Assembly: GCA_002898255.1 (NCBI GenBank)
Contig: BEIE01000001.1
Span: 930,001 to 994,000, forward strand
DNA from: a bacterium HR28
GTDB lineage: Bacteria; Chloroflexota; Chloroflexia; Thermomicrobiales; Thermomicrobiaceae
Length of the DNA: 64,000 nucleotides
Direction of reading: 5' to 3'
The notes under the pieces are model-generated. The model was not told where the DNA came from, searched no databases, and was given only the letters and a program-made list of their open reading frames with translations. Shown piece by piece: positions 35,757 through 39,501 of this stretch. The first letter of the stretch is position 1; each line of letters opens with the position of its first letter. The translations under genes and the position numbers were made by a program.

Positions 35757-35785
35757 TTGTCAGGCATACCACCTGCACGTACACT
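35757..35785 (+). promoter_or_regulatory. Promoter of the riboswitch-nrdAB transcript
   Basis: TTGTCA (35757-35762), 17-bp spacer, TACACT (35780-35785), with expected transcription start near 35792, about 60 nt before the aptamer. Confidence 0.6.
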
Positions 35786-35854
35786 GTGGGTGTGACCACG
35801 AGATGTAGCGGTGCGATTTAGGAGAGACGCAACATCTTGTGGTCTCTGGAGCCC

Positions 35855-36019
35855 AGGACGGGTGCCGGGAAGTCCGGTGCAAATCCGGCGCTGCCCCGCA
35901 GCGGTGAGCGGGGACGAACGCTGCACCCGGTCGTTGCGACCGAGAAGCCACTGGCGGAAGATCCGCTGGGAAGGCGCAGCTAGTAGGACGATCCGCAAGC
36001 CCGAAGACCGACCCGTCCT
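35855..36019 (+). ncRNA. Cobalamin (B12) riboswitch aptamer
   Basis: A closing stem AGGACGGGT (35855-35863) pairs with ACCCGTCCT (36011-36019). Inside are the conserved cobalamin-aptamer blocks GGTGCCGGGAAGTCCGGTGC, AAATCC, GCCCCGCAGCGGTGA, GCCACTGG, and the B12 box AAGCCCGAAGACCGAC (35997-36012). Binds adenosylcobalamin and should lower expression of nrdAB downstream. Confidence 0.93.
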
Positions 36020-36130
36020 GAGGAAAGAACGGTACCGCGCCTCGCGGGTGGGTGCGGGCCGGAGATCGGTGACGCGCAGGCGAGCGCGCTGTCGCGGGTG
36101 CTGAGTTCCCCGGGGAAGCATCCGCACCGG

Positions 36131-36181
36131 CTCCGTCCTACCCTGCCTCCTGGGCGCGGGAAGAGAGAAGGGAGGACGGAG
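36131..36181 (+). promoter_or_regulatory. Expression platform: ribosome-site-sequestering stem of the B12 riboswitch
   Basis: CTCCGTCC (36131-36138) is perfectly complementary to GGACGGAG (36174-36181), which overlaps the nrdA Shine-Dalgarno region GGGAGGA and ends 2 nt before the ATG. Pairing would hide the ribosome site. This suggests translational control, with no U-tract terminator visible before the start. Confidence 0.65.
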
Positions 36182-36183
36182 CA

Positions 36184-38490
36184 ATGACGACGGCGCTTCC
36201 ACTCGAACTGCAAGCGATTACCCCGGCGCAGACCCGCCTACTGGAAACCCAAATCCTTGCAGCCCTCCAGCAGTTGCCAGATCGCCCCGAGGCGGAGAAG
36301 GAGGCGGCGGCACTGCTCTTGCAGAAGATCGCCCTTGAGGCGGACAGTGGCGATGTTCTGCCCTATCCAGAGCATTTCCGCCGGTACATCGAGCGCGGCA
36401 TTGCTTGCGGAGCACTCGACCCACGGCTGGCCAGCTTCAATCTTGAGCGACTTGCAGGCGCGTTAGATCCGGCTCGTGACCGTTTGCTCGGATACATGGC
36501 TGTGGCCACGCTGGCGGATCGTTACCTCGTGCGAGATCCTGAAACACGGCAGATCCTGGAACGACCGCAGTCCCTCTTCATGCGCGTGGCCATGGGGTTA
36601 GCGCTGGCCGAGCGGCCGGAGGAGCGAACCGCCTGGGCTCTGCGCTGGTATGACCTCTTCAGCAGCCTCCGCTACTTGCCGAGCACACCGACACTCTTCA
36701 ATGCCGGGACGCCGCATCACCAACTCGCCTCGTGCTATCTGGCCGAGGTGGAAGACAGTCTGGAAAGCATCCTCGGTTCGGCCTACGAGTTTGGCATGTT
36801 GGCCAAATATGCCGGGGGCATTGGTGCAGCCGTTACCCGTATCCGGGCAGTCGGTGCTCCGGTGCGCGGCATCAACGGGACAAGCGGCGGGCTCATTCCC
36901 TTCCTCCATCTCTACGATGCGCTGATTGCCTCGATCAGTCAGGGTGGGCGGCGGCGAGGCACGATGTGTGTCTATCTTGAGCCGTGGCACCTTGAAATGG
37001 AGGCGTTCCTTGATCTTCGGCGGAATGCTGGTGATCCGTACCGGCGCACGCATCAGCTCAATACGGCGCTTTGGATCCCCGACGAATTCCTACGTCGTGT
37101 CGAGGCTGATGAGCCATGGTACCTGTTTGACCCGGCGGTAGCTCCCGAACTTCCGGATCTCTTCGGAACGGCGTTTGCGATCCGGTATCGCGAGCTCTGT
37201 CGACAGGCTGAGGGTGGGCTCCTACCGCGGCGTGCGTGGCGCGTGCTGCCCGCTCGCGAGCTTTGGCTGCAGATCCTGGCAAGCCTCATGGAGACCGGTC
37301 ATCCCTGGATCACCTTTAAGGATGCGGGAAACCTTCGTTCGCAGTTGCGTGGAGTGGGCGTCATCCACTCAAGCAATCTCTGCACCGAGATCTTTCTGCC
37401 GACGAGTCGAGAGGAAGTCGCAGTCTGCAATCTCGGCAGTGTCAATCTGGCGCGGCATTGCGGGCCGAACGGCGAGCTGGATTGGGAACAGCTCGCTGAG
37501 ACGGTACGGCTGGCGATGCGCGCGCTCGACAACGTGATTGACATCAATCTCTACCCCTCTGAGCGGGCCGAACGTGCAAACCTGCGCAACCGTCCTGTCG
37601 GCTTGGGCCTGATGGGTTTCGCCGAGCTCCTGGCTCGGCGTGGGGTTTCTTACGCTGCTCCAGAGGCTGCCGAGATCGCCGACCAGATTGCCGAGTTCCT
37701 GAGTTACCACGCGATTGCCACCAGCTGTGATCTGGCGGCGGAGCGAGGAAGTTTCCCGACGTTCGCGGCATCACGCTGGGCAGAAGGGGTGCTTCCTATC
37801 GATACGCTCGAGGAGCTCGAGGCAGAACGTGGAATGCCCATCGAAATCGAGCGCTCGCGTCGACTCGATTGGGAGATGCTCCGGGAGCGCGTGCGGCGTG
37901 GCATGCGCAACGGTGCAGTTATGGCGGTCGCTCCCACAGCAACGATTGCGTTGATTGCCGGGACTACGCCGAGCCTCGATCCCTACTATGCCAACGTCTT
38001 TAGTCGGCAAACATTGTCTGGAAAGTTTCTCGAGGTCAACCCCGTGTTAGTGGAGGAGCTGCGGCGGCGAGGGCTATGGGAGCAATTACTGCCTGACCTC
38101 GTTGCTGCGCGGGGTGATTTGCGAGCTGTGCCTGGCTGCCCGGTTGATCTTGCCGAGCGCTTTCCGACGGCATACCAGATCCCGCCCGCAGCCTACATTG
38201 AGGTCGCGGCTCGAGTCCAAAAGTGGGTGGACATGGGGGTGAGCCGGAACCTCTACCACGCGGCTGACCGGCCGGGCCAGCTCAGTGCGGCTTATCTCTT
38301 GGCCTGGCGCAAAGGGCTGAAGAGTACCTACTACTGTTTCGTTCGTCCGCGAATGGAGGTGGAACAGGCGACCGTCGCGATCAATAAGACACGACGACGC
38401 CCACAGTGGGTGCAGCTGGCTGAGCAGGAGGTGCTGGCGCGAGAAGCAGCGGCCTGCAGTCTGAACGGTGAGTGCGAGAGTTGCCAGTGA
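36184..38490 (+). CDS. nrdA: Ribonucleoside-diphosphate reductase, alpha (catalytic) subunit
   Basis: 768 residues. Reduces ribonucleotides to deoxyribonucleotides. Active-site Cys pair and radical Cys are visible: Cys in HHQLASCYLAEVED, the NxCxE motif SSNLCTEIF and Cys in EVAVCNLGSVNL. The radical-transfer tyrosine pair STYYCF lies near residue 718, and the C-terminal swinging Cys pair is in the last 12 residues (CSLNGECESC). The N terminus is not an obvious ATP-cone, so allosteric activity control may be absent. Located under the B12 riboswitch, 24 bp before nrdB. Confidence 0.94.
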   Translation: MTTALPLELQAITPAQTRLLETQILAALQQLPDRPEAEKEAAALLLQKIALEADSGDVLPYPEHFRRYIERGIACGALDPRLASFNLERLAGALDPARDRLLGYMAVATLADRYLVRDPETRQILERPQSLFMRVAMGLALAERPEERTAWALRWYDLFSSLRYLPSTPTLFNAGTPHHQLASCYLAEVEDSLESILGSAYEFGMLAKYAGGIGAAVTRIRAVGAPVRGINGTSGGLIPFLHLYDALIASISQGGRRRGTMCVYLEPWHLEMEAFLDLRRNAGDPYRRTHQLNTALWIPDEFLRRVEADEPWYLFDPAVAPELPDLFGTAFAIRYRELCRQAEGGLLPRRAWRVLPARELWLQILASLMETGHPWITFKDAGNLRSQLRGVGVIHSSNLCTEIFLPTSREEVAVCNLGSVNLARHCGPNGELDWEQLAETVRLAMRALDNVIDINLYPSERAERANLRNRPVGLGLMGFAELLARRGVSYAAPEAAEIADQIAEFLSYHAIATSCDLAAERGSFPTFAASRWAEGVLPIDTLEELEAERGMPIEIERSRRLDWEMLRERVRRGMRNGAVMAVAPTATIALIAGTTPSLDPYYANVFSRQTLSGKFLEVNPVLVEELRRRGLWEQLLPDLVAARGDLRAVPGCPVDLAERFPTAYQIPPAAYIEVAARVQKWVDMGVSRNLYHAADRPGQLSAAYLLAWRKGLKSTYYCFVRPRMEVEQATVAINKTRRRPQWVQLAEQEVLAREAAACSLNGECESCQ

Positions 38491-38514: not shown

Positions 38515-39501
38515 ATGGCGCGGAAGCTTCTCGGTGGTGACCCCTTGGCGCCGGTAGAACTCTTTCCCTTGAGTCATCCCTGGGCCTATGCGCACGTGCA
38601 GCAGGCCAAGCACAACACCTGGTTTCCCGAGGAAGTGCCGCTGCACGACGATGTCCGTGACTGGCATGAACGCTTGACCGATGAAGAGCGTCGCGCGGTC
38701 GAGATGTTCCTCGGTTTCTTCAACCCGATGGAATCACTGGTGACGACCAACCTGCTTCTCAGTCTCTATCAGGTTGTGACGGCGCCGGAAGCCCGGTTGT
38801 ATCTCGCGCGCCAGGCCTGGGAAGAGGCGAACCATGTCATGGCGTTCGAGTACGTGATCAAGACGTTGCCGCTCGATCGTCAGCGCGTTTTTGGCCTCCA
38901 TGTCGAGCATCCGGCAGTGGCGGCCAAAGAGGCCTTCCAGCGTCGCCTCACTGAGGCGTGGCTTGCTGCACCGGATATCACCAGTGTCGAGGGATTACAG
39001 CGACTGGTGCGGAATCTGGTGGGATACTTCGTGGTCTTGGAGGGCATCTTTTTCTACTCCGGGTTCGCGCTTGCTCTTGCGTTTCGGCAACGGAACCTGT
39101 TGCGCGGGCTGTGCAGCATCGTAGACTGGGTGCTCAAAGACGAGTCACTGCACCTCTCGTTCGGTATCCACCTCGTGACGACGATTTTGGAGGAGCATCC
39201 GGAGATCATGACGCCGGAGTTCGGACAAGAGCTCCGACAGTTGATCTTGGAGGCAGTGGAACTTGAGGAGGCGTATAACCGTGCTGTCCTGCCTCAACCA
39301 TTGATCGGGATCGACAGCGAGTCGCTCAACGGCTATGTCCGCTACATCGCTGACCGTCGGCTCGAGGAGCTCGGACTGCCTCCTGCCTTCGGGAATCCGA
39401 ATCCGCTCCGTTGGATGGCGACGCAGGTCGATGTGCCGGAAATCGTCAACTTCTTCGAGGCCCGGAACGTGCATTACGAAGTCGGTCGTGAGCGACGATA
39501 A
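38515..39501 (+). CDS. nrdB: Ribonucleotide reductase small subunit, class Ic-like (Phe at the radical site)
   Basis: 328 residues of the ferritin-like R2 family. Metal ligands are Glu73, Glu104, His107, Glu176, Glu210 and His213. Four residues after His107, where class Ia/Ib R2 has the radical Tyr (E-x-x-H-x3-Y), the residue is Phe111; and ligand 1 is Glu73 rather than Asp. Both traits characterise class Ic subunits, which use a Mn/Fe cofactor instead of a tyrosyl radical. Pairs with NrdA; the conserved tail is RNVHYEVGRERR. GGAGGGGAG precedes ATG 38515. Confidence 0.92.
   Translation: MARKLLGGDPLAPVELFPLSHPWAYAHVQQAKHNTWFPEEVPLHDDVRDWHERLTDEERRAVEMFLGFFNPMESLVTTNLLLSLYQVVTAPEARLYLARQAWEEANHVMAFEYVIKTLPLDRQRVFGLHVEHPAVAAKEAFQRRLTEAWLAAPDITSVEGLQRLVRNLVGYFVVLEGIFFYSGFALALAFRQRNLLRGLCSIVDWVLKDESLHLSFGIHLVTTILEEHPEIMTPEFGQELRQLILEAVELEEAYNRAVLPQPLIGIDSESLNGYVRYIADRRLEELGLPPAFGNPNPLRWMATQVDVPEIVNFFEARNVHYEVGRERR

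Follow-up and report, generated by a model that had tools for sequence, protein, structure and literature searches.

The nrdA and nrdB genes in the 64,000-nucleotide stretch of DNA analysed here (the window) are best explained, taken as a whole, as a class I ribonucleotide reductase (RNR) operon with a class Ic-type R2 subunit, which acts as a backup under B12 scarcity. The probability of this reading was put at about 80%. The R2 subunit is best filed, on sequence grounds, as a variant of class Ic with a presumed Mn/Fe cofactor, because it belongs to a clade separate from that of Chlamydia and because the Tyr222 relay of the chlamydial enzyme is replaced.

The R2 subunit and its predicted metal site

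The nrdB gene (38515..39501, + strand) is a complete ORF with an ATG start and encodes a class Ic-type R2 subunit of 328 amino acids (NrdB), the only R2 in the genome. NrdB matched the Pfam family PF00268 (Ribonuc_red_sm) over residues 14-297 (6.6e-77) and passed two NCBIfam R2 models (365.2 bits where 237 was required). Its best match in a PDB sequence search was the R2 of Chlamydia trachomatis (R2c; 1syy, 4.9e-85), and the residue register was taken from an alignment to segment 27-339 of that entry. All six metal ligands of R2c had counterparts in NrdB, namely E73 (E89 in R2c), E104 (E120), H107 (H123), E176 (E193), E210 (E227) and H213 (H230). The position of the radical tyrosine was occupied by F111, which aligned with F127 of R2c, and the radical-path residues W51, D226 and Y338 of R2c were matched by W36, D209 and Y321. 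The initial annotation had placed Phe111 at the radical-Tyr position beside E104 and H107, and Glu73 as ligand 1, and these residue numbers were right. It had also suggested looking for another Tyr at the radical site; none was present there in the alignment to R2c, and the nearby Y113 corresponds to the conserved Y129 of R2c. Both the Glu and the Phe were retained in genus relatives with 92-94% identity to NrdB. Class Ic is defined by this Phe/Glu pairing in Ruskoski and Boal (2021, PMC8463856); NrdB carries the signature (Glu as ligand 1 plus Phe), and the metals of its cofactor are predicted.

An AlphaFold model of NrdB, built from 39 sequences, had a mean pLDDT of 88.7, with low values for residues 307-328. 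The 14 best Foldseek matches of the model were 13 C. trachomatis R2 chains and the R2 of Saccharopolyspora erythraea (6y2n). On realignment, the model superposed on the Mn/Fe structure 4m1i with a Z score of 39.0 (1.2 Å over 276 residues, 44% identity), compared with Z scores of about 31-33 for E. coli class Ia chains and about 29-31 for class Id structures. The closest solved folds to the predicted NrdB structure are thus those of the Mn/Fe R2 of C. trachomatis. The C-terminal tail of the window R2 (HYEVGRERR) differs from the TEYQ...W type of C. trachomatis R2c.

Among the ligands and second-sphere residues checked, the sole departure from R2c was W205, which lies at the position of Tyr222. 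In R2c, Tyr222 helps to pass the activation electron, and its conservation across R2c proteins has been reported (PMC4118035, part of the text). This relay tyrosine, which lies outside the Phe/Glu definition of class Ic, is absent from the window R2. The two branches of Glu/Phe R2 proteins described below differed at this position: Trp was found in all rows of clade B (70/70), while clade A had Tyr in 54 of 58 rows and Phe in the other four (4/58). Among the Asp/Tyr rows, Trp was present in 25 of 33. W205 probably takes over the electron-feeding job of Tyr222.

Two branches of Glu/Phe R2 proteins and the alternative readings

A total of 161 R2 rows were compared, including the window and after one self-copy had been dropped. 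They were drawn from the phylum of the window, genome contigs (80 loci kept of 580 relatives), Actinomycetes, plasmids, phages and E. coli. The first tree contained 67 of the 161 rows, selected by eye to give a good spread, and three PDB segments; the second contained 43 rows, with the long PDB_6zjk row dropped. Three trait columns were excluded from both trees. The Glu/Phe rows fell into two branches. Clade A comprised Chlamydia, Planctomycetes, Verrucomicrobia, most Chloroflexota and S. erythraea-type rows, and clade B comprised the window genus, Thermoflexus, Microbacteriaceae, Jiangella, Demequina, Aeromicrobium, Saccharibacteria and Parcubacteria. Phe was found at the 111 position in 70/70 clade-B rows and Glu at the 73 position in 69/69 rows with a letter there, which speaks against a chance occurrence of the pair in NrdB. 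Clade B was recovered as a single clade in both trees (support 97/93 and 98/94), which places the window R2 outside the Chlamydia branch in the phylogenetic check that the initial annotation had proposed. Its likeness to the Chlamydia class Ic subunits held for the signature, the ligands, the radical path and the closest matches in sequence and fold, but not for its place on the tree, in a clade of its own, nor for the Tyr222 position.

The deeper forks between clade B, clade A and the Asp/Tyr class Ia rows were weak (81/44 and 80/39). Pseudomonas-type Asp/Tyr R2s were nested within the clade-A side (100/100), and it is with these that the S. erythraea R2 (6y2n) grouped, away from clade B, although it shares the Glu/Phe pair with the window R2. 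At least four changes between Glu/Phe and Asp/Tyr were counted on the 43-row tree, and a single clade of all Glu/Phe rows was rejected (AU p 0.027, for a group named after the first tree had been seen). As the Glu/Phe rows do not form one clade on this tree, the motif alone does not prove that an Mn/Fe cofactor has come down from a shared ancestor. Mixed class Ia and Ic groups are already known, both in the RNRdb group NrdBz (PMC6370689, in part) and in cluster 2 of a sequence similarity network (SSN; PMC8463856, in part). Within NrdBz, the NrdBzc proteins have Glu as ligand 1 and are defined by a Phe, Leu or Val in place of the radical Tyr (PMC6370689, same text). The window R2 shares Phe at the radical site and Glu as ligand 1 with this group, and NrdBz, by its published definition, is the probable home group of the window R2. 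The R2 of a Thermomicrobiales metagenome-assembled genome (MAG) (L091, 5001-5975) has Leu at the position of the radical Tyr and Glu as ligand 1.

When the window R2 and a Jiangella R2 were searched against the PDB, the top matches were to C. trachomatis and S. erythraea and none came from clade B, and literature searches found no clade-B R2 with a reported cofactor. Clade B is widespread and, judged from these searches, seemingly never studied in the laboratory. Since they yielded neither a clade-B structure nor a reported cofactor, the Mn/Fe assignment rests on the motif and on a relative with 44% identity.

Three other readings of the window R2 were weighed. The protein might be a metal-oxidant R2 with class Ic-like chemistry but a different metal pair (di-Fe or di-Mn), whose Glu/Phe state arose separately from that of the Chlamydia branch. 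The repeated Glu/Phe and Asp/Tyr changes, the rejection of a single Glu/Phe clade, the Asp/Tyr Pseudomonas-type R2s placed among Glu/Phe rows and the presence of Trp, as at W205, in most Asp/Tyr class Ia rows all lean this way. The closest fold is nevertheless that of an Mn/Fe enzyme, and every ligand and second-sphere residue checked is as in R2c, except at Y222; this reading was considered rather unlikely. The R2-like ligand-binding oxidases (R2lox) also use Mn/Fe, and a weak match to an R2lox model was obtained (NF006200, 76.8 bits, where the cut-off is 194). The window R2, however, lies directly 3' of nrdA and passed the RNR R2 models. In addition, R2lox has Ala in place of F197 of R2c (PMC4118035, part of the text), and the window R2 retains Phe (F180) at that position. 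With F180 kept, nrdA adjoining and the R2lox models below cut-off, an R2lox identity was rejected as extremely improbable. A class Id-like dimanganese R2 with a metal-based oxidant would have Glu as ligand 1 in common with the window R2, but class Id is characterised by a Tyr/Glu pairing (PMC8463856, in part), so it keeps the Tyr that is Phe here. Class Id structures also ranked far lower in the fold comparison (8dq3, Z 29.4; 6cwp, Z 28.8; against 39.0 for C. trachomatis), and this reading was rejected as very unlikely.

In the preferred reading, that of a class Ic-type R2, NrdB would bind two metals, with Mn the most likely occupant of site 1 and Fe that of site 2, and would activate O2 so that the oxidising equivalent stays on the metals and not on a tyrosine, with W205, the Trp found in place of Tyr222, probably feeding the activation electron. 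The conserved residues suggest that the hole would then pass through W36/D209 and Y321 of R2 to the Tyr-Tyr pair of R1 and on to the active-site cysteine.

Clade B spans Chloroflexota, Actinobacteria and the tiny-genome Saccharibacteria and Parcubacteria. It is possible, and we suggest it tentatively, that the clade-B proteins form a second lineage of metal-oxidant (Ic-type) R2s, one that separated in ancient times, reached or kept Glu/Phe independently of the Chlamydia branch and feeds the activation electron through the Trp that replaces Tyr222. Class Ic as defined by the motif would then consist of several lineages. This touches on the open questions of how the scaffold chooses Mn/Fe over Fe/Fe and of how often metal-based oxidants have replaced a tyrosyl radical. 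The biochemistry of true R2c comes largely from one organism, and clade B offers a distant natural comparison, thermophiles included, in which a single relay residue is changed in all members examined.

The nrdA gene and its leader

The nrdA gene (36184..38490, + strand) encodes the catalytic subunit R1 (768 amino acids; Pfam PF02867 and PF00317) and ends 24 bases upstream of nrdB, so that a partner R1 is present. The closest solved structure to NrdA was 5im3 (2.8e-201). The sequence contains the active-site motif NLCTE, a TYY and a C-terminal CESC. The ATP-cone (PF03477) was not found in NrdA by the Pfam search, and the N-terminal 114 amino acids gave zero matches even at E 10. Besides the N-terminal region of the window NrdA (36184-36480) and the NrdA of its genus, an ATP-cone was also missing from two Thermoflexus-type NrdAs (L039 and L122), and four other clade-B NrdAs carry one. 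Unlike the window NrdA, the one encoded in a Chlamydiales MAG (L087) includes an ATP-cone. Given a NrdA without this domain, allosteric on/off control may perhaps have disappeared as control passed to the leader.

The leader of nrdA comprises, in order, a promoter-like element, tandem NrdR-like boxes, a riboswitch and a hairpin over the Shine-Dalgarno (SD) sequence, and all four were kept in three genus relatives. The promoter (35757..35785, + strand), read from the sequence as likely sigma-70-type, consists of TTGTCA, a 17-base spacer and TACACT, with both hexamers conserved in the alignment of these relatives. Two putative NrdR repressor sites follow on the same strand: box 1 at 35796..35811 (score 18/24; kept in L119, L120 and L121) and, 31 bases after it, box 2 at 35827..35842 (score 20/24). 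The scores refer to an NrdR-box consensus. Nowhere else in the 64-kb window did two boxes scoring at least 17 each lie 28-35 bases apart; 100 Markov simulations of the window gave a mean of 0.01 such pairs, none of which equalled the observed one. An nrdR gene is present in the genome.

A cobalamin (AdoCbl) riboswitch aptamer occupies 35843..36030 (+ strand; Rfam RF00174, 91.2 bits, above the gathering score of 31.5, full model 1-189), and was the only RF00174 match over the cut-off in the genome. It is followed by a conserved hairpin, read from the sequence at 36035..36057 (+ strand), whose loop UCGCGGGU is the complement of a CCCGC loop in the aptamer and is presumably the partner in an L5-L13 kissing interaction. 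The hairpin block was the same in L119, L120 and L121, and related blocks were seen in L122 and L039. A further hairpin (36130..36182, + strand; -32.9 kcal/mol, z -2.8) masks the SD sequence GGGAGG (36170-36175) just 5' of the nrdA start codon, and was predicted in the fold of the full leader as well. In L121 matching changes on both sides (C-to-T / G-to-A) preserve the pairing of the same arm. The leader of L120, though diverged, folds to pair its own SD. No T run was found after this hairpin; an SD hairpin without such a terminator-like run makes control of nrdAB likelier to be translational. No anti-sequester pairing linking AdoCbl to the SD hairpin was found. The proposed control has two steps: the tandem NrdR boxes at the promoter would act on transcription, answering to dATP/ATP, and the riboswitch with the SD hairpin would turn translation off at plentiful AdoCbl.

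B12 control and the link with NrdJ

The co-occurrence of a B12 riboswitch with a class Ic subunit had been called notable in the initial annotation. The riboswitch is real, but riboswitches also precede Asp/Tyr class Ia nrdAB, in all 20 of the 20 actinomycete loci scanned, and the riboswitch as a mark of class Ic was therefore dropped. Among Actinomycetes, riboswitches were likewise found upstream of nrdAB in 13 of the 13 clade-B loci scanned (the R2 of L129 lies outside the locus) and in 5 of 7 clade-A loci (L142-L148, the same type as S. erythraea; the R2 of L146 was not seen). Elsewhere, RF00174 matches were present at the clade-A loci L125, L126, L127, L088, L091 and L112. These results come from Rfam scans, which were used because a strict riboswitch sequence pattern missed most Rfam-positive loci. 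An aptamer of a different class, AdoCbl-II (RF01689), lies upstream of the Ic-type nrdAB at an Anaerolineae clade-A locus (L099, 2307-2384), and two divergent cobalamin riboswitches (1725-1873 and 2039-2237) lie upstream of nrdA in Aeromicrobium (L040).

The B12 control of the window nrdAB is of a known kind. The nrdABS operon of Streptomyces coelicolor, which we take to be under NrdR control, is one such system. The B12 riboswitch on Streptomyces nrdABS has long been known (Borovok 2006, as cited in PMC4991794), and S. coelicolor, like the window organism, has the riboswitch upstream of nrdAB and NrdJ in the genome (PMC4991794, in part). Its nrdABS is reported as class Ia in the same text, whereas the window R2 has Glu/Phe and control here looks translational. 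Large actinomycete genomes with nrdABS-like riboswitch loci also have Asp/Tyr R2s, in contrast to the Glu/Phe of the window.

Two NrdJ frames were found in the genome (1134 and 591 amino acids), and a tandem NrdR-like box pair is also present upstream of the long nrdJ. The short NrdJ lies on another contig (L003, G000:C7) and has no tandem NrdR box pair upstream. Of the B12-synthesis markers sought in the genome, cobJ was matched only far below the cut-off and CobS not at all. This is in line with the prediction that T. roseum lacks B12 synthesis (PMC2615216, in part), and the window organism is likely a B12 auxotroph. With two B12-dependent NrdJ and the marker genes for B12 synthesis missing, nrdAB would most likely serve as an aerobic backup when B12 is short.

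Across 41 genomes with intact nrdAB, a riboswitch on nrdAB was present in 17 of the 19 genomes with NrdJ and in none of the 22 without (Fisher test, 1e-9). In this table L088 and G295 are one genome counted twice, 'no riboswitch' means below the Rfam gathering score, and NrdJ absence means no TIGR02504 match over the cut-off apart from the nrdA locus. The link persisted (7e-8) once close relatives (G295, G166, G174, G182 and L094) were dropped. When relatedness was allowed for, 3 independent pairs remained (sign test, p 0.25), so that the link is a pattern and no proof. The two NrdJ genomes without the riboswitch were L043 and the archaeon L106. As three R2 lineages occur in riboswitch-nrdAB units within one bacterial class, B12-riboswitch control at the locus appears, on this pattern, to go with NrdJ and not with the cofactor class of the R2.

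Genome G208, which is related to the Thermoflexus-like G276, was excluded from the table as it has no intact nrdAB. It keeps NrdJ, gave no NrdA match and has an R2 remnant (L123, 4210-4557; query 44-170). Its nrdAB is decayed, as would be expected of a dispensable backup. In G276:C22 and G166:C1, NrdJ is broken up inside a single long frame (2098 and 1515 amino acids, respectively), and the interruptions look like inteins or other in-frame inserts.
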